This document shows, piece after piece, positions 7,845 to 47,412 of a stretch of 64,000 bases of DNA. Where the stretch lies: IMG/VR virus record IMGVR_UViG_3300031787_007614, positions 186,001 to 250,000 of that record. One strand, 5' to 3'. Every line of letters starts with the position of its first letter. The first letter of the stretch is position 1. Source of the DNA: a virus. The notes under the pieces are model-generated. The model had not been told where the DNA came from. It was given only the letters and a program-made list of their open reading frames with translations, and made no database searches. A program made the translations under genes and the position numbers.

Positions 7845-8686
7845 CTAAATTTTACCAATCGTGAATGTGGCACATAGCAATCATCTTGACTGGTAGGGCA
7901 TTGTCGACAGATCATGTGTGGTTGGCCAAAGTTATCAGCAAACTGTTGAATATCTTCTGCACTGCTTTCTAATCCCACACTGCCGTTTGTGTTGTTGTCA
8001 AAATATTGATCCCATTGGTCTTTGTTGGGAGAATCATAGCGAGCCAGCGCATCTGGCAACAGCGCACTGGTACTGCATTTGTATATTCTTCCGTGGTACA
8101 GCAAAGGGCAAGTGGTTTGATGGCAATTGGCAAAAGCTGCTGAGGGATTGGAATTCCAAGGATGTGCAGTTTCGTATGTGCCACGAAATGTTTGTGTGAA
8201 AATTTCTGGTCGGTTGATTTGAAATCGCAAACCTGTTTTGGTACGCCACCGATCTATGCCGTATTCATGCACTGGTTGCCAATCATACGCAGACCACACT
8301 CGTTGAATGCTGGTTTCAAGTTCAGGATGATCTACATGTGCTGTGATTTTTAGTGTGGCATTACCATCTTGATACAACCAATCAACCACATCCCAGTGTT
8401 TGTGCAACAACAACCCATTGGTAGGAAAACGTATCTTGCTGTTGGGGAACATAGATCTCACGTCCCGAAGCAACTGCATGATGTCAGGATATATCAACGG
8501 TTCGCCACCCATGGGTCCTATGTCTTCAATATCAAACTTTTGTTGCCATTGTTCCAGCCAGGATCGAATTTCAGACCAAGGTGTGTATCCGCGACTGGGT
8601 ATGTCACTGTATGTACTACACCCTTGGCACACAAGGTTGCAAACTGAACTCAACATGAGTTCTAAAAATGGTAGTTGAGGTTTCAT
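7841..8686 (-). CDS. Radical SAM enzyme with C-terminal Cys cluster
   Basis: From the ATG at 8686, which overlaps the upstream stop as ATGA, the protein has 281 residues. C16, C20 and C23 form the CxxxCxxC motif that binds the 4Fe-4S cluster and SAM. GPMGGEPLIYPD is the GGE motif and RFPTNGLLL fits a beta-3/4 strand. Additional cysteines (CHQTTCPLLYHGRIYKC, then CRQCPTSQDDC) form a SPASM-like auxiliary cluster region. Such enzymes modify peptides, sugars or cofactors by radical chemistry. It lies between two glycosyltransferase-like genes, which favours a glycan or peptide substrate. The substrate is unknown. Confidence 0.85.
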   Translation of the reverse strand: MKPQLPFLELMLSSVCNLVCQGCSTYSDIPSRGYTPWSEIRSWLEQWQQKFDIEDIGPMGGEPLIYPDIMQLLRDVRSMFPNSKIRFPTNGLLLHKHWDVVDWLYQDGNATLKITAHVDHPELETSIQRVWSAYDWQPVHEYGIDRWRTKTGLRFQINRPEIFTQTFRGTYETAHPWNSNPSAAFANCHQTTCPLLYHGRIYKCSTSALLPDALARYDSPNKDQWDQYFDNNTNGSVGLESSAEDIQQFADNFGQPHMICRQCPTSQDDCYVPHSRLVKFR

Positions 8687-9423
8687 TTCCAAAAATTTTC
8701 TATTACGGGATCTTGAATTTGATGTGGTTTGGGCTGGCCGTGAAACACCAATGCACATGCGTCTGGATCAATGTGTGTGCCAGCCCCTGGAGTGTTTTGT
8801 TTTCTCAATTGAAAATTCATGCCTCCGTCCCAGGCTTGCCAGCGCCAGCTTTGAAAACGTTTTACATCAAAATATCTTTTTTTGTTGTGATCAATAGTGG
8901 CATTTATAAAGTCTTGATCACCCTGCCAGCGCCGAATCACAGCATCATGCCCTTGCCGATTGAACTCGTCCCAAACCCAAGAAAATTTTGAAACATTCCA
9001 CCACATCACGCTGCTGTTCATATTGTTCCATGAAGGACGCTGTAGGTATCTAAAGTCTTTGAGAGTCCAGAAGTAATCAGTATGCAGTTGGGTTATCCAG
9101 GTTAGGTCTGCAACAATCACACAGTCCAAATCAAAGTACAAAAAATCATCCAGATGGTGCGCAGGATTAAACATCTGTATCTTGTACCACCAAGACTTTT
9201 TGGGCCCAGCAATTCCTGGCCAATCTTCCAGTACATGTTTTACCATATGTGGCGGCACTGACCTATCATGCTCTGTGAACACATGTAGCCTTGCGCCGCC
9301 AGGCAGCCAACGATTTAGCATGTTATGCAATCGTTCAACGTAAATCCAATCGTAGCCCGAGCTGTGTATCACACAGGCGCAATCAGTCACTTGATCAGTG
9401 CGGGTTCTATTCTTTTTAGCCAT
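8683..9423 (-). CDS. Glycosyltransferase, GT-A type with DxD motif
   Basis: A 246-residue protein. LYFDLDCVIVAD (~95-106) carries the DxD metal and nucleotide-sugar site of GT-A enzymes. GDQDFIN (~169) and the C-terminal VFHGQPKPHQ match conserved features of GT8-like and related phage glycosyltransferases. It is soluble, with no membrane helix. It overlaps the upstream gene by 37 bases and the downstream radical SAM gene by four. It is predicted to transfer a hexose from a UDP- or GDP-sugar to an unknown acceptor. Confidence 0.82.
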   Translation of the reverse strand: MAKKNRTRTDQVTDCACVIHSSGYDWIYVERLHNMLNRWLPGGARLHVFTEHDRSVPPHMVKHVLEDWPGIAGPKKSWWYKIQMFNPAHHLDDFLYFDLDCVIVADLTWITQLHTDYFWTLKDFRYLQRPSWNNMNSSVMWWNVSKFSWVWDEFNRQGHDAVIRRWQGDQDFINATIDHNKKRYFDVKRFQSWRWQAWDGGMNFQLRKQNTPGAGTHIDPDACALVFHGQPKPHQIQDPVIENFWK

Positions 9424-26111: not shown

Positions 26112-26865
26112 ATTGTAACAACATGGTACTGGCTATTTCACGATGTATCTTTGGACCACCGTGCATGTGATCTCTTGCATATCCTATGTCTTCTCTCGAT
26201 CTTGTCATTGTAGTGTCAGTGTCTACAGAACAAAATTTAGCACCTGCATTGGTAGACATTTGCTGCACAGCAAAAATGTTTTTTTCTTTGTTGATCAAGT
26301 GATTTTCTTCTTGCATGAACCATGTGTTGAGATACACATCTGCAGGGTTGAAATACTTGCTCTGGCTCTGTGGCATAAAAGTATCTGCTTTAAATATATC
26401 ACTGTCTTGGCATTTTTCTGCAAGAACTAATTCAATTCTAGCTTGCGGTGGTGCAAGCATGCAAACCACTTTGGCATTGAGTTTTGGTAGCCAATATCTA
26501 GCCAATCTAAAACAACTGTCAGCTGAATAGCCGCCCCAAGCCAAATTAAACACTTTTAAATTCAATGCTTGTCCTACTAGGCTGGGCCACAAGCATTCTA
26601 CTGGCAACCCAATGCCCATGGTATAACTGCAACCCAGTGCCACAACACACGGCAAGTCATCAAACTCATCGCATCTGAATCCTTCGCTGTTTAGATTGTA
26701 AGTGATAGCACCTGGCTTGTCCCAACCCATGTTTTGAAAATATTCTCGATGTGCAGAATTTTGCATCAAGTTGTCAAAATGTTCTTTGGTGTCAGTTGGC
26801 ATCCAATCCAAACATTGGTCTGCTATGTGAATGCCAGGATGATATGGTTTTTGATGTGTTATCAT
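26077..26865 (-). CDS. SGNH hydrolase-like protein with GCSYT nucleophile block
   Basis: A 262-residue protein. VVALGCSYTMGIGLP (~67-81) is a variant nucleophile block, and LAWGGYSADSCFRLA the glycine block. MLAPPQARIEL holds the block III position. DHMHGGPKIHREIASTM near the C-terminus supplies candidate Asp and His. The first ~60 residues (KPYHPGIHIADQCLDWM) are an extra segment absent from the other three copies. It overlaps the radical SAM gene upstream by four bases. Confidence 0.65.
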   Translation of the reverse strand: MITHQKPYHPGIHIADQCLDWMPTDTKEHFDNLMQNSAHREYFQNMGWDKPGAITYNLNSEGFRCDEFDDLPCVVALGCSYTMGIGLPVECLWPSLVGQALNLKVFNLAWGGYSADSCFRLARYWLPKLNAKVVCMLAPPQARIELVLAEKCQDSDIFKADTFMPQSQSKYFNPADVYLNTWFMQEENHLINKEKNIFAVQQMSTNAGAKFCSVDTDTTMTRSREDIGYARDHMHGGPKIHREIASTMLLQYEQNQTNISPQ

Positions 26866-27998
26866 AATGAATTAGCAATGGTAGGCCAAAGAGCAGCAAA
26901 ACTTGTTGATTTTTTAAGCTGTTGCTCAATGTTTTTATGAAATTCCAAAATGTCAAAGTTGTAATCAGGAGATATCAAATAACTGTTGTCTTGCAAAGTC
27001 ATGCGATATCGTTTGAGTGTGTCTACTGCACGACCCTTGTGATCTTGCCAGCGTTGTACAACTTTATCTATTTCTTGTATGGCCAGTTGTCTTAACGCCT
27101 CAGGGTATCGTCGAATGTCTAACTCCCAAGGATGAGACAGTTCACACCAAAACAAATCAAGATTGTGACGTTCACAATATTCATAGTATTCCACAAGGTC
27201 TAATGCACAATAAATTGAATAGGCCGGATGCGCTATGACTTTTTGTTGATCTTGTTTCATCACAGCAATGTTTTTTTCAAACTGTTGCCAATTGGCTCGA
27301 TCCCGCACATATTCAAATTTTTCAGCATTGGCATTGTCAAAGCTGATCATCCAGTCCACGCTAGGCCAAGTTTTAAGTGTTTGATAGATTGTGTTGGTAG
27401 TGATATCCATGCTGAGATTGGTAGTAACCATTACTCGTACTTTGTTTGGATTTATAAATTTTAGAAACCTGTCAAGCCCTTTTTGCAACAATGGTTCACC
27501 GCCGCCCAACACAAGACCTTGAATGTTTTGTCCTTGTGCTTGTGCCAATTCGATAAGGTCTTCATGTTCATTTTTAACATGATTGATTGGTATGCGTTTG
27601 ACACTTTGCCAAGCCGTGGAAGTTTCAGGATTGCAATACACACAGGTAAGATTGCACAGATTACTCCAGTTAACCACAAGATGTTCTAATTTAAAAAATT
27701 CAATGTCTTGATCAATAGCTGACAATGTGTCTGGATCTGCATGTCGCACTGTTCTACCACTGGAGCCTGTGGTTTCTTCAAGTTGCTTGCACCAAGTGCA
27801 TGCTGCATGCCACTCGCCTTGTGCCATGGCATTTTTAAGTTCTCTAGCAGGTGCATTCAACAACACCTGTTGTATGGGTATTTCTTTGATGTTGCCCAGT
27901 TCATAACCTGAGTGCATGCAGGGGAACACACGACCAGTTTGATCAATATTCAAACTGGTCCAAGGTGCTGAACAAAATGTAGGACTTTGTGTAATCAT
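26862..27998 (-). CDS. Radical SAM protein with N-terminal SPASM/twitch-like domain
   Basis: From the ATG at 27998 (ATGA overlap) the protein has 378 residues. The N-terminus FCSAPWTSLNIDQTG with C9, C27, C67 and C70 looks like the auxiliary-cluster (SPASM/twitch) domain that normally follows the core. The radical SAM CxxxCxxC is C115, C119 and C122, and GLVLGGGEPLLQ is the GGE motif. The order is therefore auxiliary domain first. The substrate may be a peptide, an amino acid or a sugar. It is followed by an SGNH gene and preceded by an oxygenase-like gene. Confidence 0.85.
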   Translation of the reverse strand: MITQSPTFCSAPWTSLNIDQTGRVFPCMHSGYELGNIKEIPIQQVLLNAPARELKNAMAQGEWHAACTWCKQLEETTGSSGRTVRHADPDTLSAIDQDIEFFKLEHLVVNWSNLCNLTCVYCNPETSTAWQSVKRIPINHVKNEHEDLIELAQAQGQNIQGLVLGGGEPLLQKGLDRFLKFINPNKVRVMVTTNLSMDITTNTIYQTLKTWPSVDWMISFDNANAEKFEYVRDRANWQQFEKNIAVMKQDQQKVIAHPAYSIYCALDLVEYYEYCERHNLDLFWCELSHPWELDIRRYPEALRQLAIQEIDKVVQRWQDHKGRAVDTLKRYRMTLQDNSYLISPDYNFDILEFHKNIEQQLKKSTSFAALWPTIANSL

Positions 27999-28555
27999 AA
28001 TTTTTCTGAAAGCCAACTGTAACTGCACAGTCTAAAAGAGTCAGCAGGAACTGGCGTTAGCATGGCATGCCATTGTAAATGTCTCACACCTTGACTATCT
28101 GGTGTGTTGATCATTATATAACCACTGTTGGGTTGCATGGTAAATTGATATCGCAATGAGTCAGGATTTTTGTAGTGGTAAAACGAAGTGCCCAACTGTG
28201 CGTCAGCACCAATCCAAGTCAGTTGCATGGATCCCGGCATTTCGCCATCAGTGTGCATGGCACAAGTGAATCCTGGTTCGTCTACCCACCACGCTGTGCC
28301 TTGATATCCTTGCAGTTTGCGCCCAAGGCCATGTTCAATTTGATCAATGTGCTGTTCAAGATATTGGTGCCATTCTGGCATCCAAGGCAAAGAGTCATTG
28401 TTAATTTTTCTTCGTGGCCATAGTTCTTGCCCTTCTTGTTTTTGCCAGGGCAGAGACAACCAGTCGGTAGTCATGACTTTTTGCACAATGTTTTCAGGAA
28501 AAACATTTTCAATCAAGAACAAGTCATAATACTCATCAACAGCAGTTATTTGCAT
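27995..28555 (-). CDS. 2OG-Fe(II) oxygenase-like protein
   Basis: The start chosen is the ATG at 28555 (186 residues); an ATG at 28576 is possible. H101 and D103 (MHTDGEMP) form an HxD metal pair after WVDEPGF. H159 or H163 (VRHLQWHAM) is the likely distal histidine and R175 (FRLCSYSW) may bind 2-oxoglutarate. This is the facial triad of the double-stranded beta-helix dioxygenases, which hydroxylate proteins, sugars or small molecules. It lies between two radical SAM genes with overlapping ends, so all three probably act in one pathway. Confidence 0.72.
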   Translation of the reverse strand: MQITAVDEYYDLFLIENVFPENIVQKVMTTDWLSLPWQKQEGQELWPRRKINNDSLPWMPEWHQYLEQHIDQIEHGLGRKLQGYQGTAWWVDEPGFTCAMHTDGEMPGSMQLTWIGADAQLGTSFYHYKNPDSLRYQFTMQPNSGYIMINTPDSQGVRHLQWHAMLTPVPADSFRLCSYSWLSEKL

Positions 28556-29694
28556 AGGAATGCCAGTTCTGGCCATAGGCGTTGAAATTCACCAGCTTTG
28601 TCTGGATGATACTTGGTCTCGTTGTCATGAATGTGTTTGAAGAACGCTGTGTCAATCTTGCTGATTTTGTTCTCACTCAATCTGGCTTGATAGGTAGCTA
28701 ATGCATTGTCAAAGAACTGGCGTTCAGCAGGGGTAGCAATACCCATCGCATAGAAACGTTCAATCTCTGTAATGGCTTCCCGAGCAACACCAGCACCGTG
28801 CAAGAACGGATCAAGGTATTCGGGCTGAAACAAGTTTTGCCACAGCACTGTGGTGCCTGTATCCTCAGCAAACTGTCTTAATTCACAGATGCGAGTGGCA
28901 TTGTAAATGTTGTACACCGCATGTATGCCGCCCCACTGACCTTGTGTGGTCATGAGATGTTTGATCTTACTCAAGTTTTCTTTGATCAATGACCATGTAG
29001 CACCGTGTCGCACATACTCCACTCGTTCACCGGTGTTGTCAAAACTCATTGACCAGCCAACTCGATTGCGTGTTGACAACTTTTGAAATATCTTGTTTGA
29101 ATCCAAGTCCACGTTTAGGTTTGTGATCAGTGTGACTATGGCATCCTTGGGTATGACATCTAGCAGTCGATTGTTTTCTGGCAGCAACAAGGGTTCACCA
29201 CCCACAAGTGCTACTTCGTGTATGTGTTCATAGTGCTGTTCAATAAAGTCGCATACTGAATCATAGTAGGGTCTTGCACCACTCTTAAATGGAATGCCTT
29301 TGAGGCTGGCCCATTTTGAACTGCAAGATTCGCCACAGTAGTTGCAACTCAAATTGCAAGTGGTATTCCAGCGCACATCCACAATAACAGGATAGTGATA
29401 CTGGTCCCCAGCTGTGGCATAGTCAAAGTTGGGATTTACATTGTTGTGCCATTGGCGTTCGGAATCTGCACCAAAACGTTCAGCTCGCACACAGTTAGAA
29501 CAATACTCATGCGGCTTGCCTTGTGACAAGCTGGTGCGTATCTCTGTCATGAGATTGGAGTTAAGGATCTGTTCAATTGTTTGGGTATTGAGGTTGCCCA
29601 GCATGTTGGGGTTGCCAGCACAACAAGTTTTTACATCGCCTCGGGGATTGATATGTAGACCGCGCCAGGGGGCCGCGCAATAAAATTCTTTCAT
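28546..29694 (-). CDS. Radical SAM protein with N-terminal SPASM/twitch-like domain
   Basis: A 382-residue paralogue of 26862-27998. The N-terminal YCAAPWRGLHINPRGD with C6, C24, C25, C65 and C68 is the auxiliary domain, including an LGNL turn typical of SPASM. The core CxxxCxxC is C113, C117 and C120, and VALVGGEPLLLP the GGE motif. WSMSFDNTGERVEYVRHG is nearly shared with the other copy (WMISFDNANAEKFEYVRD), which indicates related substrates. It is the first gene of the island, behind a late-type box. Confidence 0.86.
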   Translation of the reverse strand: MKEFYCAAPWRGLHINPRGDVKTCCAGNPNMLGNLNTQTIEQILNSNLMTEIRTSLSQGKPHEYCSNCVRAERFGADSERQWHNNVNPNFDYATAGDQYHYPVIVDVRWNTTCNLSCNYCGESCSSKWASLKGIPFKSGARPYYDSVCDFIEQHYEHIHEVALVGGEPLLLPENNRLLDVIPKDAIVTLITNLNVDLDSNKIFQKLSTRNRVGWSMSFDNTGERVEYVRHGATWSLIKENLSKIKHLMTTQGQWGGIHAVYNIYNATRICELRQFAEDTGTTVLWQNLFQPEYLDPFLHGAGVAREAITEIERFYAMGIATPAERQFFDNALATYQARLSENKISKIDTAFFKHIHDNETKYHPDKAGEFQRLWPELAFLCK

Positions 29695-30151: not shown

Positions 30152-31738
30152 TTAGGTTATTTCCTGCCATTCTACGCTGGCATATACGTCTTGGTTGGTG
30201 CCTGTGGTAGCCATGGTAATTAGATACTCGTATGGAGTGCCAGTGAATGGTTCGCGTTCCAATTGATATTCAAACGAAAATGGCTCTTGTGTGGGCGCAC
30301 CAGTGGTTTGATTGGTTGAGTTAACAAATGATTGCTCAGCAATGTCGCCTGACACCAAGGCCGTGGGCGCAAGATTGTATTGAACTGAACTATCTGCGGC
30401 TGAATCTACCCAAGTTCCACCTGACGTGATAGCTCTTTTATACACACGGAATGCAAACACACTGGCAGCTATTGGAATTAAACTGTAGTTTATGGGTATG
30501 ACCACAGCGTTGAGATTGGTGCTCTTGAGACGGATAGCAATCACAGGTTTAAAACTTTGATCATTAGGCAACCGCACTGGAGTGCCCAATACATGACTAG
30601 CTGCACGCGGATTGCCTGAGCCTGACAGTTGGAAGCCACCTTCTGAAATTACACTGCTACAAATCTGTGTCATCTGACTAACACTGGCCACTGTTGCTGT
30701 GTTGGTTATTTCATAGCGAATGGGCAAACTGGCTGTGGTCATGTAGACTTTGGTGTTGCCCGGCTGATTGGCGTGATTGAAGGTGTGGCAAATAATGTAA
30801 GCACCGTCAATCACAAAACCCACACGCACTGATCCTACACCCAGCCACTCTACATCAGCATAATAAATTTGTGTACGTTGTGGGTACAATGTGATACCTG
30901 ATGGGTTTGTTGCACCACCGACTCCGGTGAGTTGGTCACCGTTCCAGGCATCTTGACGCACACGCTCTTCTACACCGTATGATCCTGAACGGATCACCAT
31001 GTAGTTGTATGTGCCGTCGTTTTCAAAGAACACACCGTCGTTGGCATCAAACAAGCCCACACGCTGGCGTAGATTTGTTTTGGGAGTGTTCATACAGAAT
31101 GTGTTCAGTGTGAGTTGACTTTTGCCAGGCTGATAAGGGAATGGTTTCAGTGTTTCTCGCAACACTGAATCGCCCGACGCTGTGCCCACGTTGAGTTGGT
31201 ACGAACTTTGATTTTGCACATATACCACGTTGCCTGTGCCTGTGACGTTGCTTGCAAACTGTCCATGATCGTAATAACGTGACTGTGTGTCAAATAGAGT
31301 AAAAGGATTGCTTACACGCAGTCGTCCAAACGCATCAGATACTGCACCCGAGAATCCTGATATGATCACATTGGCGTCGTTGTTGAGCGTGGCATTGATA
31401 TTTCCAGATACTACCCAAGGGCTGGTGCCTTGTGTGACGTTGACGTTGCCGACAATGCCTACGTTGCCAGTAATGGGGTTGATAGTAACATTGCCAGTGA
31501 TGCCTGCTATGTTGCCAGTGATGCCTGTGATGTTGCCTACCACAGTAACTGGCAGTGTGTTGCCTGTGAGATCAACGTTGCCTAAACTACCAATGGCTAC
31601 ATTGCCTACAGATACGTTGCCTATAATAGCAGCATTGGTTCGAATAAAAACATTGCCAGTCGCGTCGTCAAGCTCCAGGGCTTGATTGATATTCCGTAGA
31701 TACCACGGTGCTACTTGAGTTGGGTCTGGGATTGCCAT
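30152..31738 (-). CDS. Virion structural/tail-fibre-like protein
   Basis: A 528-residue protein. Residues ~28-110 are a run of short GNV/GNI repeats (VTVVGNITGITGNIAGI and similar), recalling the repeats of the long fibres at 56-64 kb. After ~140 a globular, beta-rich region continues to the end, including AFGRLRVSNPFTLFDTQSRY. No enzyme motif is visible. AGGA precedes the ATG. It ends one base before the thermonuclease start region. I infer a fibre, whisker or decoration protein. Confidence 0.7.
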   Translation of the reverse strand: MAIPDPTQVAPWYLRNINQALELDDATGNVFIRTNAAIIGNVSVGNVAIGSLGNVDLTGNTLPVTVVGNITGITGNIAGITGNVTINPITGNVGIVGNVNVTQGTSPWVVSGNINATLNNDANVIISGFSGAVSDAFGRLRVSNPFTLFDTQSRYYDHGQFASNVTGTGNVVYVQNQSSYQLNVGTASGDSVLRETLKPFPYQPGKSQLTLNTFCMNTPKTNLRQRVGLFDANDGVFFENDGTYNYMVIRSGSYGVEERVRQDAWNGDQLTGVGGATNPSGITLYPQRTQIYYADVEWLGVGSVRVGFVIDGAYIICHTFNHANQPGNTKVYMTTASLPIRYEITNTATVASVSQMTQICSSVISEGGFQLSGSGNPRAASHVLGTPVRLPNDQSFKPVIAIRLKSTNLNAVVIPINYSLIPIAASVFAFRVYKRAITSGGTWVDSAADSSVQYNLAPTALVSGDIAEQSFVNSTNQTTGAPTQEPFSFEYQLEREPFTGTPYEYLITMATTGTNQDVYASVEWQEIT

Positions 31739-31780: not shown

Positions 31781-32059
31781 TTAAGTGTAATATACAATTT
31801 CACCAGTGGTGGGATTGTAAGCCAATTGAAAAAATCCTGCAGGAAGTCCTGAACTACCGCCGTTACTAATACCGGCAGCAATCTGTGTTAGTGCGCCAGA
31901 GCTGTTGCCAATATACACTTGATCAGTACTTTGATCAACTACCAGTTCACCAGGTCTAGCATTGCCATTGTAATTTGCCAATGTTACTTGTGCGTTGTCT
32001 TTCATTACAGCACGGCTTATGCCTGTGATGTTGTCGTATGGTGGGGGTGGGTTTGCCAT
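31781..32059 (-). CDS. Small virion protein, fibre-like
   Basis: A 92-residue protein with a Pro-rich start (MANPPPPYDNITGI) and ARPGELVVDQSTDQVYIGNSS, a pattern frequent in trimeric phage fibre repeats. The C-terminus FFQLAYNPTTGEIVYYT is beta-rich. It may be a tip or adaptor of the following fibre-like protein. No catalytic motif is seen. Confidence 0.65.
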   Translation of the reverse strand: MANPPPPYDNITGISRAVMKDNAQVTLANYNGNARPGELVVDQSTDQVYIGNSSGALTQIAAGISNGGSSGLPAGFFQLAYNPTTGEIVYYT

Positions 32060-32096: not shown

Positions 32097-32486
32097 TTAG
32101 CGAGGGTAGCCAGCAAATGCCTTTACAGGACTGGTTGTGCTTACAAAGCTGGGTTCTGTGCTGTCAGGTGTTGACACTAGTTTTTTGCCACCAGGTGTGT
32201 TGGTCATTGCCAACGCTTGATCAATAATTTCAGCAACGTTAGGACCCATGCCTTCGACCACACCATGTTCACCAAATGCTGTTTCATCATGCCAATTGGG
32301 AATGTGATTGGTAATTCCATCTTTGCCAGCATCACTTCTGGCTCGTGCCAATGCCACACCAAATCTATAGTTGCGATAGGGGTCGGCTGCACTCAGTCCT
32401 GGAATCACATAAGTGTAACGCATGGGGTCAGATTGCTCTGGTGGCAAAATAGCTGCTTGTTCAGTAATGAATTCTCGTGCTCTCAT
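32097..32486 (-). CDS. Internal head protein candidate with capsid-targeting N-terminus (copy 2)
   Basis: A 129-residue protein starting MRAREFITE. This matches the form of the capsid-targeting sequence of T4 internal proteins (EFIAE), cut by the gp21 protease after the glutamate. The end, SPVKAFAGYPR, is shared with the next gene, while the middle is unrelated. EHGVVEG (~73-79) and NVAEI (~83-87) resemble further protease-type sites. Its ATG overlaps the stop of copy 1. I predict it is packaged in the head and ejected with DNA. Alternatively it is a scaffold component. Confidence 0.65.
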   Translation of the reverse strand: MRAREFITEQAAILPPEQSDPMRYTYVIPGLSAADPYRNYRFGVALARARSDAGKDGITNHIPNWHDETAFGEHGVVEGMGPNVAEIIDQALAMTNTPGGKKLVSTPDSTEPSFVSTTSPVKAFAGYPR

Positions 32487-32854
32487 CTTGGATAGCCCTG
32501 GAATGCTTTGACTGGACTGGTGGCATTCACTGCTGGATGTTCTTGCGAAGCCAAATCGCCATGATTTAGGTCTTGGTGATGACTGCCCACTGCTTGATAG
32601 GCCTTTTTCAACATGGCCTGTTCTTCAGGAGTGTATGGTGCTGCCACATTGTTGCGACCGCTCCATGATTCGCCGTCAAGATCAGGTACAAACGTGCCAT
32701 CAGTAGATGCCACTGCCATCATGATTCTGTTGAGTTCATACACGCGGTCAGCAAACTGCTTGTCTCGAAACTTGTTCAAGCCTACTGTGGCATTTTGATT
32801 GCGTTTGCTAATCGTGCCAACTTTGTCTTCTGCAATGAACTCTTGTGCTCGCAC
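32483..32854 (-). CDS. Internal head protein candidate with capsid-targeting N-terminus (copy 1)
   Basis: A 123-residue protein starting MRAQEFIAE, identical over EFIAE to the recalled T4 internal-protein targeting peptide. It ends SPVKAFQGYPR like its tandem neighbour. The middle (KVGTISKRNQNATVGL, then FADRVYELNRIMMAVAS) is basic at first and then helical. The four-base overlap with copy 2 and the conserved ends with divergent cores suggest a fast-changing cargo. Cleavage after residue 9 by the prohead protease is predicted. The function after ejection is unknown. Confidence 0.68.
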   Translation of the reverse strand: MRAQEFIAEDKVGTISKRNQNATVGLNKFRDKQFADRVYELNRIMMAVASTDGTFVPDLDGESWSGRNNVAAPYTPEEQAMLKKAYQAVGSHHQDLNHGDLASQEHPAVNATSPVKAFQGYPR

Positions 32855-32856
32855 AA

Positions 32857-33147
32857 TCAGCTGCCTCCGCCAATCACTCCAGATGTGGCTGAACTGGCTG
32901 TGCCAAGTTCTGTTGCGGTAAACGGGGCAGTAGATATCACTGTTACTTTGTTGCCAGCACCAGAATAAGTTTGATACACAGTGTTGGCTGGGATATTAAC
33001 TGGTACAGAATACAAATTGCCAACTGCGTTGGCTGTTCCTAACGCAACAGCATACACCTGCAACCAAGCATTGGCTGTACTGGTGCTGATTTCAAGTTTG
33101 TCAGTGTAAACAGTAGTATTGCTTAAGGTAGTATATACATTGGCCAT
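32857..33147 (-). CDS. Small virion-associated protein
   Basis: A 96-residue, Thr/Ser/Ala-rich beta protein (NTTVYTDKLEISTSTANAWL, VTVISTAPFTATELG), with no charged core and a GVIGGGS tail. It resembles short receptor-end or fibre-adaptor proteins such as the one at 60183-60518. Its ATG overlaps the stop of the 56-residue gene (TAATG). Confidence 0.6.
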   Translation of the reverse strand: MANVYTTLSNTTVYTDKLEISTSTANAWLQVYAVALGTANAVGNLYSVPVNIPANTVYQTYSGAGNKVTVISTAPFTATELGTASSATSGVIGGGS

Positions 33148-33321: not shown

Positions 33322-35253
33322 TTACCCCTTGTAGGCTTTCCATTGATTGGTCAAATCAAAAATACTTTCTTCAACTTTTTTTTCTTTTTTGTCATCAACG
33401 GCTTTCTTGAAAGGTTCTTTCTTGTCGCCATCTTTGTCAACATCTAAAAAATCAGGTTTCTTGGCTTCCTTAATACCAGCAATGTCACGCATGCGCTGTA
33501 ACTCTGCTTCGTAGGTGTGTTGACGATTTTCTTGGCTGGCAATCACAGGCACAGTGGTTTGACCAGTTGACTTGGGACCGTTCAGACCGCCACTGTACAT
33601 CATGGCATCTTCTGTGCCTTCTTCTTCTGTGGGCCAATCAGGAGCATTTTCATCAATAGCCTTTTCAATATCACCGCATCCGCAATCGCCGCTGCCACAA
33701 GTTGGACAAGAAACTTTGCTGCCCATGTAACTGCCTTCATCACCACTGCCACCAAGACCTGCGTTTTTCAACAGCATGCCTAATTTAAGTGCATCTTCGT
33801 CAGACGCTGTAATGGTCAGGCTCTTGCCGCCTTCTGTGGAGTCGCTCATGTTGATGCTCATTGATTCAGCAATCATGGCTTCTAAGTCACGATTCAATGA
33901 ATCATAGATGCCTTTGCCAAACCCAAATCCGCTAGACGCTGTTGGTGTTCCAGTACCGCCTTCTTCTTTGACTTTTTTAGGTTTGTCTTCTGAAGATCCT
34001 TTTTCTTTGGCGGCCTTTTTCATAGGTTCTTTTTTGTCGCCATCGCCATCAACATCGGCAAAATCAGGCTTGCTGCCAGAAGATTTTTTCTTTGGTGCAG
34101 AGTCATTATTGCTTTCAGGCTTGCTGTCAGACTTGCTAACTTTGTAGCCAGCTTTCTTCAACAATGCCATTGCAGCTTTAAGATCGCCGTGGTCTTCACC
34201 AGGATCAATGTCGTTTTCTTTGGTCATCAACTTTGAACGACCTGATGGTCCTTTGGCGCCCATTTTGCTACCTGTTCCTGCAGGACGTCCACGGCCGCGC
34301 TTGGCTGGTTGAGCATCAGCAGTGTCATCTGCGCCCACTGAATGACCTTGGTCATCCACTCTACGAGTTACTTTACGGCCAGTGGCAGTGTGTTCAATGT
34401 CGTGTTTGTGACCGCGTTCAACTGATCCAACCTTTGGTCGATCAGCACGTGGCTTTTTCCATGATGTAAACGGATTGTTATCATCGTCTTCGGCAGTTTC
34501 TTGTTTGCCGCCTTTGCGTAACATAGCAAAGTCGTTGGCATCTAGTTTGCCATTTTTGTTCATGTCAATTTTCTTTTGCTTGGGACTAAGTGCAGCCTTC
34601 ATTGCTTCAGCAGCTACATCGCCCAAACGCTCGTCAACTTCTTTCTTGGCGCCGGCAATCTTGTCAGCAAAAGTAATTTTGTCTTTAGGTTCAGCAAGTG
34701 CAGCAAAGCTCTTGGCCTTGGCTGGTGACATTTTTTCTTTAACTTGCTTGGGATTGGGTTCTGCGCCTGGCTTCATACCAGTCTGCGGAACACCCATCTT
34801 GCGTTGTAGGTCACGCATCATGTCAGCATCGTCGCCGTGGCCTAGTTTGTTTAACACAGCGCCGCCAACTTTCTTGGCCATACCGCCAACTTTCTTGGCC
34901 ATGTCGCCCATGCTTTCTTTGGCAGTTTTTTCAGTGTCCATGCCTTTTTCAGCATAGTGACCAAGAGCAGCTCCAGCAGCGCCACCCAGCGGTCCGGCAG
35001 CCAATGCTCCTAATCCGCCACCAACAGCAGCACCAGTGGCGCCTTCGTCATACTTGTCGTATTTTTTGCGAACAGGATCTAATGCCTTGCCTTCACGTCC
35101 AGCTTTGGCCAATGCTTCCATACCTTGCTTGCCATACTTTTCATAACCCTTGGCTGCACGGCTCATGTCACGTTCGTTAAGTTGACCGTGTGTGGTTTCT
35201 GGCTTCTCACGAATGGAATCCAGCTTTTTGTTTAAGTCGTAAAAAAATGTCAT
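33322..35253 (-). CDS. Large head-associated protein with glycine zipper, AT-hook and EF-hand-like loops
   Basis: A 643-residue, highly charged and mostly disordered protein. Residues 71-98 are a glycine zipper (AVGGGLGALAAGPLGG). KRGRGRPAG (318-326) is an AT-hook DNA-binding core. DMNKNGKLDANDF (230-242) reads as an EF-hand loop, and KPDFADVDGDGDKKEPMKKA and KPDFLDVDKDGDKKEPFKKA (~395-414 and ~599-618) are duplicated Asp-rich loops. CPTCG...CGCG (516-526) may hold zinc. Its place before the internal-protein genes suggests a core or DNA-condensing head protein. No sequence match to a T4 protein is claimed. Confidence 0.72.
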   Translation of the reverse strand: MTFFYDLNKKLDSIREKPETTHGQLNERDMSRAAKGYEKYGKQGMEALAKAGREGKALDPVRKKYDKYDEGATGAAVGGGLGALAAGPLGGAAGAALGHYAEKGMDTEKTAKESMGDMAKKVGGMAKKVGGAVLNKLGHGDDADMMRDLQRKMGVPQTGMKPGAEPNPKQVKEKMSPAKAKSFAALAEPKDKITFADKIAGAKKEVDERLGDVAAEAMKAALSPKQKKIDMNKNGKLDANDFAMLRKGGKQETAEDDDNNPFTSWKKPRADRPKVGSVERGHKHDIEHTATGRKVTRRVDDQGHSVGADDTADAQPAKRGRGRPAGTGSKMGAKGPSGRSKLMTKENDIDPGEDHGDLKAAMALLKKAGYKVSKSDSKPESNNDSAPKKKSSGSKPDFADVDGDGDKKEPMKKAAKEKGSSEDKPKKVKEEGGTGTPTASSGFGFGKGIYDSLNRDLEAMIAESMSINMSDSTEGGKSLTITASDEDALKLGMLLKNAGLGGSGDEGSYMGSKVSCPTCGSGDCGCGDIEKAIDENAPDWPTEEEGTEDAMMYSGGLNGPKSTGQTTVPVIASQENRQHTYEAELQRMRDIAGIKEAKKPDFLDVDKDGDKKEPFKKAVDDKKEKKVEESIFDLTNQWKAYKG

Positions 35254-35258
35254 TTTGA

Positions 35259-35867
35259 TTATCCTCTTGGGTTGGCGCCGGTTGCAGGCTTGGGTTGACG
35301 TTTGATATTGGTCATAGGGCTCTTGTTGCCCTGGGGAAGTTGGTTAGTGGTTTTAGCAGGTGGAGTCTTTTCTCCAGCAATAGTAAAATCACTGCGGTAA
35401 GCATTTTTCAACACAGCATGATCGTATGGACCAGTTGAGTAGTCTTTGCTAAGTGCTCGCTGAGCAGCATCAGGTGTTGGATAGTCTGTGTCAGCCAACA
35501 AGTTTTTGTTTTCAGCTTCAATCTTGTCTGCTTCATCAACCAGGCCATCAACGTGAGCTTGAGTCTGCATCACAATAAGATTGGGATTGCCACCGAGCAT
35601 TTGAAACAGTTGTTTGATCTGCGGCTCAATAGCAGGATACTTGAAACTCACATCAAACATTGTCACAGCATCATTCTGATTGTTTGGAAAGTCTGTGAGG
35701 ATCTTTTGAATAGGAGTGGTCTTGGCATCGCCCAACTTAGTTGGATCAAATTGATCCAGCTTGGTTTTGAGTTGACGCACAAGATCGTCTGGAATGCGGC
35801 CGCACATTTTGATACGATAGTCGTATGTGCGTTCGCTTTCTGCTAGATATTTGGCAAATGGTTTCAT
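35259..35867 (-). CDS. Conserved head-region protein, possible internal/core protein
   Basis: A 202-residue protein starting MKPFAKYLAES. The YLAE segment is a possible prohead-protease site (Leu-x-Glu) after a short basic peptide, as in the neighbouring internal-protein candidates. ERTYDYRIKMCG follows, a stretch I recall in conserved unknown proteins of aquatic T4-like phages. The C-terminal ~50 residues are Pro/Lys-rich and probably disordered. AGGA precedes the ATG. Confidence 0.65.
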   Translation of the reverse strand: MKPFAKYLAESERTYDYRIKMCGRIPDDLVRQLKTKLDQFDPTKLGDAKTTPIQKILTDFPNNQNDAVTMFDVSFKYPAIEPQIKQLFQMLGGNPNLIVMQTQAHVDGLVDEADKIEAENKNLLADTDYPTPDAAQRALSKDYSTGPYDHAVLKNAYRSDFTIAGEKTPPAKTTNQLPQGNKSPMTNIKRQPKPATGANPRG

Positions 35868-36388: not shown

Positions 36389-36820
36389 TTACGGACGACC
36401 GTTATGAAACATGTCATTTTCGGTGATGACTCGAAACGTCATACCATTGCGTCTAGCCCATTTGGTTGCAGCGTCCCATTTGGCATAGTTGATTGCTACC
36501 ACTGCTCGGTCTCTACTGCTCATTTTTGATTCCACTACACTTTGCTTTTTGGGCTTGATTTCAATCAACTCTGCTCGCACAGTGTTGTCTCTATTGCGAT
36601 AGGTAATCAGAAAATCAGGTATGTATTGGGTCATTTTACCTGTGAGCGGATGGCGGTATGGTATGGCTATGCTTTCACTGGCCCATTGCAGTATGTGATC
36701 GTTGCTGTCACAAAATCTCATAAAGCTGTGTTCCCACCCAGAACGAAATCTAGGTGTGCCCTTGCCCACGTATTTGGCAGGGTTTTGAACTACGTATTGA
36801 CCTTGGGCCCAGCGACTCAT
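36389..36820 (-). CDS. gp4: Head completion protein gp4
   Basis: A 143-residue protein (T4 gp4 is about 150). NPAKYVGKGTPRFRSGWEHS (~12-31), MRFCDSNDHILQWASE, YIPDFLITYRN and ELIEIKPKKQ form the nuclease-like fold (TnsA/PD-(D/E)xK type): E in GWEHS, D in PDF, and E-x-K in IEIKPK. gp4 acts at the head vertex after packaging, possibly trimming DNA ends before the neck binds. It overlaps the preceding gene by four bases. Confidence 0.9.
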   Translation of the reverse strand: MSRWAQGQYVVQNPAKYVGKGTPRFRSGWEHSFMRFCDSNDHILQWASESIAIPYRHPLTGKMTQYIPDFLITYRNRDNTVRAELIEIKPKKQSVVESKMSSRDRAVVAINYAKWDAATKWARRNGMTFRVITENDMFHNGRP

Positions 36821-39073: not shown

Positions 39074-42000
39074 TTAGCCTCCAGCAGCGATTTCACCAGT
39101 GTTCTTGATACGCAATGGAATATAGATAAACTCCACTGCCTTCACTGGTTCTATGGCAATATCAACCCACAACTCATTACGGTCAATACGAGCTGGAGTG
39201 TTGTTACTCAAGTCGCACACTACCAAGTAGTCATAGATTGCACGTTTAGCAATCAAGTCAATCATCAAACTGTTGCAAGTGTTGGTGATCTCATTGCGTG
39301 TGATTTCGTCATTGGGCTCAAACAAATACAGTTTACCAATTTCTTCAAGACGTCCACGCAAGAATGCAACCAGTCGTGCAACGTTGATACGATCCAATGC
39401 TGTGGTAACAGTGGTCGATGTCTTGTTACCAAAGTTGGTAATACCCACACCTGGAATAAAGGTGATTGGGTTGATGTTACGCTCATACAGGATGTCACGT
39501 ACAGCTTGTCCAACGCTGAGTTGTTCAAATTCGCCAGTTGCGGCATTGATGTAGCCGATGGCCACAGCATTGTCAACAACACCACGACGTGTGCCTGCTG
39601 GTGCCAACCATGGATAGCTCACAGCGTCTGATCGTAGAATTGTACGCATCATCATGTGACTTGGCGCACTAACCACAGTGTTTCCGCTGAGATCGCTTGT
39701 TTGGCAACTTGGGTAGAAGTTGGCGGCGTAGTTGCTGGTTGATGTCAATCCATCTTCAGTATCTAAACCAAGTCCAAGGTTGTTGGTAGCCCAGCTAACC
39801 AAGCTGTTGCCATCTGGTCCAAGACGCATTGGTGTATCACCAACCACAAACAATGTGTTGTTGCGCTCGTTGCTGAGTGCAATCATGTTTGGTGTCAACT
39901 CAGGATATGCTGTGGCAGAAATCAAGTTGAATCCATTCTGCTCTTCTCTTGCAGCAGCACTGGTATCAATACCTGACTTCATTGCTGCCACAACCATCTT
40001 GCGTTGTGCTTGACGTCCAGCAAACATTGCACCAGTATCTTTGTTGCCGCTAGCTGTCAACCAGGTATTCTTCACAGCTGGCAATGTATCATCTGGGAAG
40101 TCTGTGGCATTAAAGTAGTCGCTTTGATAGCTCTTGACATTGTATCCTGATCGACGAGTGTTCCATAACAACATGCCTTGTGGATACAGGGCAGGATCTG
40201 GAGCATCCAAGTCTAAATAGTTAGAACTTGCCAATGCTTCAATGGTTGGGAATGGATCACTGATCGGATCTGTGGTACCATTTGTGGCCCAACGAGCGTC
40301 GGCAAATAGTATACCATTTTCTGTAACTTGATCAGTGGTATTGATTGCTACCCACTGATCAACGTTGTTTACTGATTCCCAACGATAAATCAATGGATAG
40401 TTTTCAAGATCACTTGAATCAATCCACAAATCACCGTACTCCAAAGGAGATTCAGCAGCATTATTTTGTGTTGTTGGTGCAGTCGCAGCCACAATAGGTC
40501 CACTTGCATTGGTAATTGTCAAATCGTAACCACGAACATCATTAGTTACGTTTTGATATCCAATCCAGCTGCCGTTGTTTTGAATCATGATATCAACTTG
40601 ACTTGGAGTGCTGTAATACCACAAACGTCCGTCATCTGGATCAACGTCAGGTGCAGTGTCGCTGGCTGTGTAAGTGAACAAGTCAGCTGTGACCCAGTTG
40701 CTCAAATCTAAAAACGTGTCATCAGTTTTATTAAGGCGGCATTTGGGTGTTGCGTCTGTAAATCCAGCTTCAAGAATTGGTGTCCCTGAAACTTCTTGCA
40801 ATGCAATAGATCCGCCTTGACTGTGTGAAAACACAATGTTACCAGCTGAGTTCACACTGGCTGATACATAAGGCACATTGGCAGCACTTATTGCTGCAAT
40901 AAAATCAGCCACTGTTCCAGTACCACCAACAGTTGCAGTGCCTTGGTTAACTGTAGTTGCTGATCCAGCAACAGACGCTCTTATAAGAAGCGAATCACCA
41001 ACAGTAAACGATGGAGGCACAGTAGTACCAGTAACTACAGTAGCACCAAGTGCAATTCTTTCAAGGATTTCAAAATTAAATTGTGGGAATCCAGAAGCAG
41101 ATTCTACAGCTTGTGTTAGCACATAGGTCGTTCCTACTGGAATATTTTTACCACCACCAGATGGATCTAGATCATAATTGGCAGCACGGTCTGAAGTATA
41201 AACGCCACTAACTTGACTTACCCAAGCACCCAAGGTGGTGCTGTATTTTTGCACTTTCAAACTCATGCCATTGTTGGCAGAGCTGATGTTGTTCCATATA
41301 GATCCAGTTGGACGAGGACTTGTATCAGTGGTTCTCCAGCGTGGAGCTTGATAACTGTACCCCACAAAGTATGTGGGTGCAAGATAATCTTTAGCTTCAA
41401 TGCCTAATGCTGTCAGTAATGCTGCACCGCTGGTTGGTCCAGCTTCAATTGACACAATGCCACCTGAGCCAGTAGATCCGTCATTGGTAGCGTCGCTGGT
41501 GGCAAAAATTTGTAACTTACCACTTACTGCGGCGGCTGTTACACCAGTTATAGAAGCAGCAGTAATAACTGCCGCTAGTCCAGCAACAGTATTGGTAGCA
41601 CCCACTGTGATCAACGTATCGTTGATAAACATGCTTGCACCAACAGTCAATGTGGCAGGACTTGCTGTGCCTGCCACTGTGGCCCACGATGTTTTCCACT
41701 CATCAGTACCAATTTGCACCCAAAGATTGCTAGAATTTTTGTAGTAGCCTGGTATAAACTGCGCAAATGCAATTACAGCATAGTCACCAACACTGCCAAT
41801 TGATGGCAATGGCTCATAGTCTCCGCCTGCGGCATCAACAACATCATCTTCGCTAATGATTTGAATTGGTGTTTTGACAGTGAAAACATTGGTAGTTTCA
41901 TTCCACTCTTGGATGCCCCAAACTGATGTTGAAGTATCTAACCAATAGGTACCGTCAGCTGGCTCACCTACCGGACGAGTCAAACTAGCAGTAAGCTCTG

Positions 42001-42349
42001 TGAGATCAATATCACAACGTTGGATATAGGCACGATTTGTAACGCCTAGTGCCGAATAAGCAGCCAGTAGACCATATTCGTTGAGTTCGTAACCGTTGAT
42101 TGGAGTGCCAGTTGTGGTAGAATAAAAGAATGGCACACCAAATGTGGCCACCAAATCTCGTTGACTGGTGATTAAATAGGTTTTGTTGGCGTTGGCAGCA
42201 GTTGTGCCAGCAGCAACAGTTACTCCATCGCCTGACACTTTGTTTTGTGCAGTGGCAATGAGGAAATACGGTACGGTGTTAACGGCTGAAGGGATATATT
42301 GACTTTCGTCAATTACTGTTACTTCTACGCCTGGGGATACTAGAGCCAT
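39074..42349 (-). CDS. gp18: Tail sheath protein gp18, enlarged
   Basis: A 1091-residue protein against 659 in T4. The N-terminus SPGVEVTVIDESQYIPS and the C-terminal third (FLRGRLEEIGKLYLFEPND, NRNELWVDIAIEP-type strand, VEFIYIPLRI) are the conserved sheath core. The middle holds several repeated beta-rich inserts with similar starts (RPTGSIWNNISS, PAPDDGRLWYYSTP-like, DLWIDSSD), which resemble surface-exposed domains. The sheath contracts to drive the tube through the host envelope. It starts the long late operon, with a CATAAATA box 25 bases upstream and AAAGGAA before the ATG. Confidence 0.92.
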   Translation of the reverse strand: MALVSPGVEVTVIDESQYIPSAVNTVPYFLIATAQNKVSGDGVTVAAGTTAANANKTYLITSQRDLVATFGVPFFYSTTTGTPINGYELNEYGLLAAYSALGVTNRAYIQRCDIDLTELTASLTRPVGEPADGTYWLDTSTSVWGIQEWNETTNVFTVKTPIQIISEDDVVDAAGGDYEPLPSIGSVGDYAVIAFAQFIPGYYKNSSNLWVQIGTDEWKTSWATVAGTASPATLTVGASMFINDTLITVGATNTVAGLAAVITAASITGVTAAAVSGKLQIFATSDATNDGSTGSGGIVSIEAGPTSGAALLTALGIEAKDYLAPTYFVGYSYQAPRWRTTDTSPRPTGSIWNNISSANNGMSLKVQKYSTTLGAWVSQVSGVYTSDRAANYDLDPSGGGKNIPVGTTYVLTQAVESASGFPQFNFEILERIALGATVVTGTTVPPSFTVGDSLLIRASVAGSATTVNQGTATVGGTGTVADFIAAISAANVPYVSASVNSAGNIVFSHSQGGSIALQEVSGTPILEAGFTDATPKCRLNKTDDTFLDLSNWVTADLFTYTASDTAPDVDPDDGRLWYYSTPSQVDIMIQNNGSWIGYQNVTNDVRGYDLTITNASGPIVAATAPTTQNNAAESPLEYGDLWIDSSDLENYPLIYRWESVNNVDQWVAINTTDQVTENGILFADARWATNGTTDPISDPFPTIEALASSNYLDLDAPDPALYPQGMLLWNTRRSGYNVKSYQSDYFNATDFPDDTLPAVKNTWLTASGNKDTGAMFAGRQAQRKMVVAAMKSGIDTSAAAREEQNGFNLISATAYPELTPNMIALSNERNNTLFVVGDTPMRLGPDGNSLVSWATNNLGLGLDTEDGLTSTSNYAANFYPSCQTSDLSGNTVVSAPSHMMMRTILRSDAVSYPWLAPAGTRRGVVDNAVAIGYINAATGEFEQLSVGQAVRDILYERNINPITFIPGVGITNFGNKTSTTVTTALDRINVARLVAFLRGRLEEIGKLYLFEPNDEITRNEITNTCNSLMIDLIAKRAIYDYLVVCDLSNNTPARIDRNELWVDIAIEPVKAVEFIYIPLRIKNTGEIAAGG

Positions 42350-45830: not shown

Positions 45831-46505
45831 TTATTTACCAGGGGTTATCCATTTTTCTAGCTTGGATGCAATCAGTTCATGCCCAAGTTGATTGGGGTGT
45901 GCAAAATTAGGTCTAATAAATTCATTGTCTGCAACATTTAGTAGGTGTTCTCCGTGGTAGTCTGTTGCACCAAACCAGTCTGCGGCTGTTTCTGTTCCTT
46001 GTTTCCAAATTTTACTTGTGTCAACTCCAGGCAGCCATTCAGGATATCGCACCCATCCAGCAAAGTAAAAGTCATTGATTTTGTAATGCTTGGACCAAGA
46101 TTGCAAGGCTGTTATTGTGGCCGAAGAACGCATGACTTCGTGTCCTTTGCGATGAAAGTGCATGAACACCTCACGTGCCCATTCTTTGGCGTCTGTAGGC
46201 CAGTGTTTCCACTCACGATCTTGTTCGTTCCATGTTCCAAATCTAGGCCAGTGTGTAGACCTACCTGGATTTGTTAAAAAAAACACAGCAGTGATTTCGT
46301 CATCAGTGTTGTGATGATCAGCAATGTATTCTTGAAACTGATACAACATGTCCTCATTACTGGCTCCAGCAGATCCGTAGTTGAAAAATTTATCAAAACC
46401 CATTTGACGTTGCAGTAGGTCGCCGTATGGTACCTCATGGGGTGGGGTTAGCTCTCCGCCTTGTGGCCAGCTGTCGCCAAATGTTAATAACGTTTTATGT
46501 GTCAT
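45831..46505 (-). CDS. SGNH/GDSL hydrolase-like protein
   Basis: A 224-residue protein and the most complete SGNH copy: FGDSWPQGGE (9-18) carries the nucleophile Ser, NYGSAGASNEDML the glycine block, FFLTNPGRST the Asn block and FAHPNQLGHELIA the C-terminal His. Expected activity is hydrolysis or transfer of ester groups on a glycan or lipid. It overlaps the radical SAM gene upstream by 11 bases, a pairing also seen at 26 kb. Confidence 0.75.
   Translation of the reverse strand: MTHKTLLTFGDSWPQGGELTPPHEVPYGDLLQRQMGFDKFFNYGSAGASNEDMLYQFQEYIADHHNTDDEITAVFFLTNPGRSTHWPRFGTWNEQDREWKHWPTDAKEWAREVFMHFHRKGHEVMRSSATITALQSWSKHYKINDFYFAGWVRYPEWLPGVDTSKIWKQGTETAADWFGATDYHGEHLLNVADNEFIRPNFAHPNQLGHELIASKLEKWITPGK
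45832..45839 (-). promoter_or_regulatory. Late promoter GGTAAATA for gp13
   Basis: Lies 18 bases before the ATG at 45813 and includes the stop codon of the SGNH gene. Confidence 0.55.
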
Positions 46506-47412
46506 TGGATGCAGTGCCTTTGACTGTGGGGGTAATAATTCTATTGATTCCTTTGTCTGGACAAAATTTACATTGTGGAATTGGGTGCTTTAAACTTTCC
46601 ACCCAATCATCTTTGTAGAGTTCAAAGTTGTCCAAGGTCAGTGGTCGGTAGCTGTTCATGATCTGGCGATCTGATTCAGAAATGTCAAATTGATTTTGTT
46701 CATCAAATTCTGGAAACAGCGCCGCGGGGCCGCATTTGTATATTTTTCCGCGAACAAAGTGATAGCATTTAAATTTAACAAATCCGCACTGTTGATGACT
46801 GCGTATAGGGTCGCTGTCATGAACAATAAATCGGCCAGTGTTGTTTAACTGCACAGCGGATGTTTGGAAATTGTTGGCTAGGTGCATGCAAACAATCACA
46901 CCATTTTTATCAACCACAGTCCAGTATGAATCCCATCCTTGCCAATTTGGTGGTGGGGGGAGGTCTAATTTAAAACCAAATTCTACTACAACGGTATCAA
47001 GAAAATCCAATATGTTTTGACGCAACATTTCAAAGTCTGCTATGTTGTGCAGACTCACTCCAATGTGATTCACTGGCCTTTCTGGCGGTCGGGGTCTGGT
47101 CATTGCCTCATACAGTCCTGGGACATGATTCAGTCGAGTGCCATTGGTCAGTATTTCTACATCGCAATTGAATATTTCATTCAAGCCCACTACCCATTCT
47201 GACAGTGTGGGATTTAGTGTGGGCTCGCCACCTAAGATAGTTATGGCACGTAGTTCAATTTGTTTTGCCCACTGTTGATAGATGCCTTCGTAATCGCTCC
47301 AGCGTTGCCATCCTGAAAATTTATGATTGTTAAAACGGTTGCAATTATCGCAGGTGTAGTTGCAGACATTGGTAATGTAAAATTCTACTTTTTCATCAAA
47401 TTTCAATTTCAT
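46495..47412 (-). CDS. Radical SAM enzyme
   Basis: A 305-residue protein. C17, C21 and C24 form the CxxxCxxC site in ITNVCNYTCDNC. ITILGGEPTLNP is the GGE motif and VEILTNGTRLN the next strand. C-terminal cysteines (CGFVKFKCYHF, CGPAALFP, PQCKFCPDKG) form an auxiliary-cluster region like that of 7841-8686, to which it is closest. It lacks the N-terminal SPASM-like domain of the 26-29 kb pair. GGTAAATA lies seven bases before the ATG. Confidence 0.85.
   Translation of the reverse strand: MKLKFDEKVEFYITNVCNYTCDNCNRFNNHKFSGWQRWSDYEGIYQQWAKQIELRAITILGGEPTLNPTLSEWVVGLNEIFNCDVEILTNGTRLNHVPGLYEAMTRPRPPERPVNHIGVSLHNIADFEMLRQNILDFLDTVVVEFGFKLDLPPPPNWQGWDSYWTVVDKNGVIVCMHLANNFQTSAVQLNNTGRFIVHDSDPIRSHQQCGFVKFKCYHFVRGKIYKCGPAALFPEFDEQNQFDISESDRQIMNSYRPLTLDNFELYKDDWVESLKHPIPQCKFCPDKGINRIITPTVKGTASNDT

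Follow-up and report, generated by a model that had tools for sequence, protein, structure and literature searches.

Tandem proteins with a T4-like capsid-targeting tag as probable internal head proteins of an uncultured jumbo phage

Do two small neighbouring proteins that share their first and last residues carry signals that bring them into the head of a phage? The question is raised by two genes in a stretch of 64,000 nucleotides (the window), which comprises bases 186,001-250,000 of a 364,404-base IMG/VR virus record. The initial annotation described two open reading frames (ORFs) with the shared starts MRA(R/Q)EFI(T/A)E and ends SPVKAF(A/Q)GYPR, and both are found as described on the minus strand, where they overlap by 4 bases and start MRAREFITEQ (P1) and MRAQEFIAED (P2):

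32097..32486, minus strand: P1, 129-aa tagged head-protein candidate, MRAREFITE / core / SPVKAFAGYPR (ORF, ATG start)
32483..32854, minus strand: P2, 123-aa paralogue, MRAQEFIAE / core / SPVKAFQGYPR (ORF, GTG start)
32460..32486, minus strand: P1 N-terminal tag MRAREFITE, predicted cleavage after E9 (conservation, DNA pattern, codons, T4 comparison)
32828..32854, minus strand: P2 N-terminal tag MRAQEFIAE, predicted cleavage after E9 (conservation; QEFIAE identical to T4 IPII/IPIII)
32100..32132, minus strand: P1 C-terminal tail SPVKAFAGYPR, basic, pI 10 (PSSM link to the gp67-like core protein; charge)
32486..32518, minus strand: P2 C-terminal tail SPVKAFQGYPR (PSSM link to the gp67-like core protein; charge)

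The paralogues P1 and P2 are probably internal proteins of the head in an uncultured T4-like jumbo phage, targeted by the tag and cut after E9; their packaging, cleavage and ejection, as well as the role of the tail, we infer from sequence comparison. The nonapeptide MRAxEFIxE, as a T4-type capsid-targeting sequence, would recruit them to the scaffold core during prohead assembly, where the S77 prohead protease would cut after E9, giving the neo-N-termini QAAILPPEQSDPMR... (P1) and DKVGTISK... (P2) and leaving mature proteins of ~12.6-12.8 kDa in the head. The SPVKxFxGYPR tail would be a second core-association element, probably docking to scaffold, shell or DNA, and in related phages the same tag would direct other cargo to the head.

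The virome search proposed at the outset for proteins with such ends was productive, with 79 IMG/VR relatives for P1, 108 for P2 and at least 234 through a family alignment. Across 316 distinct members of this P family, the tag scarcely varies at six positions, R2, A3, E5, F6, [IVLM]7 and E9 (R2 in 316, F6 in 313, I/V/L/M7 in 313, E9 in 308). The eight members without E9 comprise two mis-assigned starts, four insertions that keep [IL]xE, one with IIE one residue earlier and one without a site. In the insertion variants MRAREFVSAKITET, MRAREFVSARITET and MRAREFVSAVLSET, E9 is lost and [IL]xE stands four residues further on, a displacement that selection for a protease site would predict. At position P3 of the cleavage motif, 22% of relatives have Val, which the strict L/I-x-E of T4 does not include. 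In T4 itself, gp21 cuts after L/I-x-E, the first ten residues of the internal protein IPIII suffice for its packaging, and Tyr4 is one of two residues reported to be important in IPIII targeting (PMC9026906). The T4 start ending in EFIAE, as given in the initial annotation, is borne out by the T4 record, in which IPII and IPIII begin MKTYQEFIAE(A), with QEFIAE common to P2, and IPI (MKTFKEFTSTTTPVSTITEA) has EF...ITE|A, an insertion relative to IPII/IPIII.

A prohead protease gene was expected elsewhere in the genome and was found: an S77 (gp21-type) protease is encoded at G000:262533-263171 (PF03420, E 2e-24), alongside gp23 (E 7e-98), gp20, gp22 and an acidic protein at the position of gp67, in the T4 gene order. 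An LxE is kept in gp23 of this phage and its relatives (YLKE|N, LAE|S, LNE|N) where mature T4 gp23* starts, in agreement with the L/I-x-E specificity known for T4 gp21 (PMC9026906), and the S77 protease of this phage is thus predicted to use L/I-x-E. In a sample of 25 records, all of them tag-bearing, the protease is present in 12/12 of at least 151 kb and in 0/13 of at most 129 kb, the latter being likely fragments. The proposal of a T4-like capsid-targeting peptide therefore holds up on several sides, namely the protease, the LxE of gp23, the start of T4 IPII/IPIII, the near-invariance of the tag, its co-occurrence with the protease and its presence on other proteins, so that it is well supported that the tag would work like the T4 sequence.

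Exact MRAxEFIxE starts occur at least 95 times in viral contigs, 51 of them on the P family; among the 95 matches listed, 40 proteins of at least 60 aa carry the tag on other cores, which form about 20 clusters, a couple of them noise. Each long record has 1-7 tags, which are often spread over several loci and both strands. Tagged or P-related proteins with recognizable domains are:

L204:2340-3212: tag MRARDFLLE, HExxH metallopeptidase-like part and cytidine/dCMP deaminase domain
L231: tagged GNAT
L475: tagged GNAT (by eye)
L466: tagged Kinase-PolyVal and DUF6934 (weak)
L355: tagged ParB_N and DUF6886
L348, L401: tagged GH19/LysM
L464: tagged LRV repeats
L469, L465: tagged kinase-like and ART-like proteins (by eye)
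L223:4384-5721: cytidylyltransferase-like domain fused to the C-terminal part of the P family, end KLSPVAATKRNKYGI

The peptidase-deaminase is a candidate injected enzyme. Polyvalent proteins with domains of these types are predicted to be injected (PMC5512222), and their sharing of the tag supports head loading. That the tag is separable from the domain behind it follows from DUF6321, which in cultured Synechococcus phages, as the C-terminal part of longer proteins, aligns with the tagged version only from about residue 7-11; in phage B23, the domain follows IVE|DWQKVN, and the tagged form has an identical junction, FIVE|DWQKVN. Two further proteins were observed. A tagged GH19 protein (L349:2992-3609) has a Tat-like signal directly after the tag (MRAVEFIAE-IDRRGFLGALGAGAMAAAG), and outside the window a 470-aa protein of this phage (G000:72191-73603, minus strand) has a DUF6321-like end (RRKSFCARMSG...RKWNC) and a likely start, MKLNDVILEA, that also fits an N-terminal [IL]xE tag.

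We lean, with some reserve, towards regarding MRAxEF[ILV]xE as a portable head-loading address in freshwater T4-like jumbo phages that form a large group without any cultured member. It would serve to package a broad, effector-type repertoire of ejected proteins (kinase-like, ART-like, GNAT, peptidase-deaminase, ParB-like and a nucleotidyltransferase joined to the P-family fold); P1 and P2 would be its constant members and would have a second, C-terminal core-docking motif besides.

The cores of P1 and P2 had been described as unrelated and variable, possibly acting against host defences, and this part of the initial annotation needs revision. P1 and P2 are distant full-length paralogues bridged by intermediates: their groups are joined by full-length BLASTP alignments (183 relatives), and the cores without both ends are still joined stepwise in profile searches (class 0-5 2.8e-10, 5-4 ~1e-4, 4-1 3.6e-7; best shuffled decoys 0.0011-0.08). 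The homology rests on these intermediates, since the direct profile-profile match of the P1 and P2 cores is too weak alone (hhalign E 0.006, probability 3%). In a 20-member alignment, one Y, two A and one S of the core are invariant. AlphaFold models of P1 and P2 (pLDDT 85 and 82, pTM 0.53 and 0.47) have a like order of elements, with a helix at ~36-53 or 37-49, a helix at ~84-95 or 76-89 and the remainder extended, and the tag is their lowest-confidence part. Among 236 P-family loci, 183 have two members, 21 three and two four, and consecutive members overlap by exactly 4 bases at 179 of 231 junctions. Purifying selection acts on the cores (dN/dS about 0.1; 0.10-0.14), and the family is present in 4/4 records of at least 150 kb picked by gp23 alone; P1 and P2 are therefore old, constant paralogues.

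Outside the uncultured relatives, a tblastn search of 50,697 cultured-phage records gave no homologues of P1 or P2, nor of one distant member (a single chance match at E 5), a nucleotide search of the region against cultured phages gave no match, and neither did GTDB genomes. There is no significant match of P1 or P2 to PADLOC, Pfam, PHROGs or NCBIfam, and fold searches had no match for P1 in the PDB and none for P2 in BFVD. A gene of about 177 aa (LYLIEAS...RTNHG) lies repeatedly between P-family copies (L016:4076-4606, L192, L202, L203); on visual inspection it looks like part of an N-terminal nucleophile acyltransferase, and the L016 copy is without a Pfam/PHROG match.

T4 IPI* acts against a restriction enzyme, and P1 and P2 could similarly be tagged, packaged and injected to block a host defence enzyme. 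They share with the T4 internal proteins the type of tag and the small size, they occur as tandem paralogues, 2 to 4 per locus, and in relatives the same tag stands on enzyme-like and polyvalent-type domains for which a role in the host is plausible. Such a function is nevertheless unlikely: the cores are under the strong purifying selection described above, the P family occurs in all four of the gp23-selected records, in contrast to the highly diverse internal proteins of T-even phages (PMC3012670), and PADLOC gave no match. Conserved cores that nearly every member of the phage group possesses make it more probable that P1 and P2 are standard parts of the head, or else ejected proteins that stay constant, than that they are anti-defence proteins evolving fast.

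If P1 and P2 are internal head proteins, their basic SPVKxFxGYPR tails may tie them to the core in a second way. A PSSM built from the C-termini of gp67-like proteins of relatives ranks P2 second and P1 third among the 496 ORFs (17.0 and 11.3 bits; next unrelated 8.4), and the reverse PSSM, built from P-family tails, ranks the gp67-like protein third, behind P1 and P2 (16.7 bits; next 6.6). The match between P1/P2 and the acidic core protein encoded between gp20 and gp21 is thus reciprocally best among the 496 ORFs; ranking by trained PSSM was used instead of counting SP motifs at C-termini, which is not significant alone (4 seen, 2.4 expected). The acidic protein is called gp67-like by gene position and composition, without a family match. 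Distant P relatives have tails such as SPVAKPKKNKYGV, resembling the KSPVAESKKSVKKVIR of the core protein. The shared tail may be a core-association element of P1, P2 and the acidic protein, and the reciprocal match suggests a second targeting element that is not described for T4 internal proteins.

A variant of the preferred reading, compatible with it, is that both ends of P1 and P2 are propeptides: a second cut by the protease, at a conserved SxE some 17-19 residues before the C-terminal end, would leave only the core. In its favour, 306 of 316 relatives have SxE ahead of the tail; both ends of T4 Alt are reported to be processed, and cleavage by phiKZ proteases follows S/A-x-E (PMC9026906). 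Yet gp23 of the clade has L-x-E rather than S-x-E and the SxE could be structural, and we regard cleavage at the second site as doubtful.

The gene order places P1 and P2 among virion genes. They had been assigned to a late head/tail operon, rightly: transcription runs first through the upstream genes, those of the tail sheath, the tail tubes, a gp4-like head-closure protein and a virion structural protein. Their order recurs in the cultured jumbo phages XbC2, PA5oct and Kaldavass; in PA5oct, ESI-MS/MS annotation marks several of the genes located here as structural. The neighbours include:

33322..35253, minus strand: 643-aa low-complexity protein, at the position of MS-identified structural proteins in PA5oct
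35259..35867, minus strand: 202-aa protein, N-terminus MKPFAKYLAESER, C-terminal KSPMTNIKRQPKPATG (phrog_14802, head and packaging; virion structural homologue)
36389..36820, minus strand: gp4-like head-closure protein (phrog_218, 5e-41)

The 202-aa neighbour has a Y[IL]xE start that is also found in relatives, and its PA5oct homologue is annotated by ESI-MS/MS. It was considered as the carrier of an old capsid-targeting sequence and rejected: the cultured homologues (PA5oct MKSFRDYYDAS, XbC2 MNKLQKILTDL) have no LxE, and the tag-like start is thus confined to the clade. Several other observations concern the surroundings. The tail sheath (window 39074-42349) has 1091 aa and is larger than the phrog_10581 model (915 positions), and genes that by eye are radical-SAM-like, glycosyltransferase- or methyltransferase-like lie among the structural genes (window 6726-8758, 26862-29694 and 46495-47412). 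In many relatives, a protein that starts MKxLxDY[IL]xE and ends SFRARHNCxNPGPRxKARYWSCRAW stands just before P2 (L037:3806-4321 and 28 related proteins); this type is absent from the ORFs of the present record.

The genes at 31781-32059, 30152-31738 and 32857-33147 look fibre- or decoration-like, which would allow a surface location for P1 and P2. As tail, neck or capsid-surface (decoration or fibre) proteins, they would use the N-terminal peptide as an uncut assembly or docking motif and the SPV tail to dock on another virion protein; their place among tail-tube, sheath and fibre-like genes and the conservation of the C-terminal tail, equal to that of the N-terminal tag, would fit. This reading is improbable, however, given that the [IL]xE site survives insertions in the tag, that the tag also occurs on polyvalent-type proteins, for which injection has been predicted (PMC5512222), and that the tail is common to a protein encoded between gp20 and gp21.

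The two ends behave as protein features. Synonymous codons are free to vary at A3, E5, F6, I7 and E9 of the tag and at P, F, G and Y of the tail, which argues that the ends are under selection as protein. The DNA pattern of the tag (ATG start) occurs once in the window against 0 expected from shuffles, and the C-terminal sequence is absent from every other ORF of the 364-kb record. A DNA-level or chance origin of the shared ends (recombination site, start-region RNA signal, recent duplication) is highly improbable, for although the paralogues are adjacent and tag codon 2 is nearly always AGA or CGA, all synonymous codons are used at the other conserved residues, which already contradicts it, pN/pS is low at both ends, the protease motif is preserved in the insertion variants and the reversed tag pattern has 0 matches across 25 related records.

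To our knowledge, packed and injected head proteins are known for very few phages. With a tag that marks head proteins, sequence alone would suffice to predict the cargo of many uncultured jumbo phages, and what they inject could be tested directly by mass spectrometry or tag-reporter fusions; if the address is indeed portable, metagenomes could be read directly for lists of head cargo. The larger lead would be the tag in its role as a label of cargo in uncultured jumbo phages. No earlier description was found in the open-access literature searched, and the match of the C-terminal SPV tail to the gp20-gp21 core protein is new here.

Among known systems, the T4 internal proteins IPI, IPII and IPIII are similar to P1 and P2 in being small, present in several copies, provided with a short N-terminal peptide (ending EFIAE in IPII and IPIII) and accompanied by an encoded S77 protease, and the insertion variants of the P family parallel IPI. 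They differ in the tag, MRA-xEF against MKTYxEF, which in P1 and P2 is one residue shorter and without Tyr4, and in the cores, which are non-homologous, essentially the tag alone being aligned: the P-family profile matches T4 IPII weakly (10 bits, mainly via the tag) and IPIII and IPI not significantly. T4 IPII and IPIII are basic, with a pI above 9, whereas P1 and P2, at pI 5.5 and 6.4, are not, and the P family has conserved cores (dN/dS about 0.1) and an extra conserved C-terminal tail. P1 and P2 are therefore outside the T4 internal-protein family proper by homology, charge and variability.

T4 Alt, an injected ADP-ribosyltransferase, likewise has an N-terminal propeptide processed by gp21 and is processed at both ends (PMC9026906), but it is an enzyme of another size and P1 and P2 are without an ART domain. 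The phrog_14802 virion structural protein (PA5oct EST35_0202 and relatives) corresponds to the neighbour at 35259-35867, in the same order behind sheath, tube and gp4, and has a PA5oct homologue, whereas P1 and P2 have no cultured one. The polyvalent proteins of phages and conjugative elements are comparable through the Kinase-PolyVal, ParB-like, GNAT and metallopeptidase domains that bear the same tag in related phages, although P1 and P2 are single small domains without a known fold. With respect to the prohead core proteins of the T4 gp67/gp68 type, P1 and P2 lie elsewhere in the genome, have an N-terminal tag and lack acidic repeats, but they share a C-terminal xNTKSPV-basic motif with the acidic protein that this phage encodes between gp20 and gp21.
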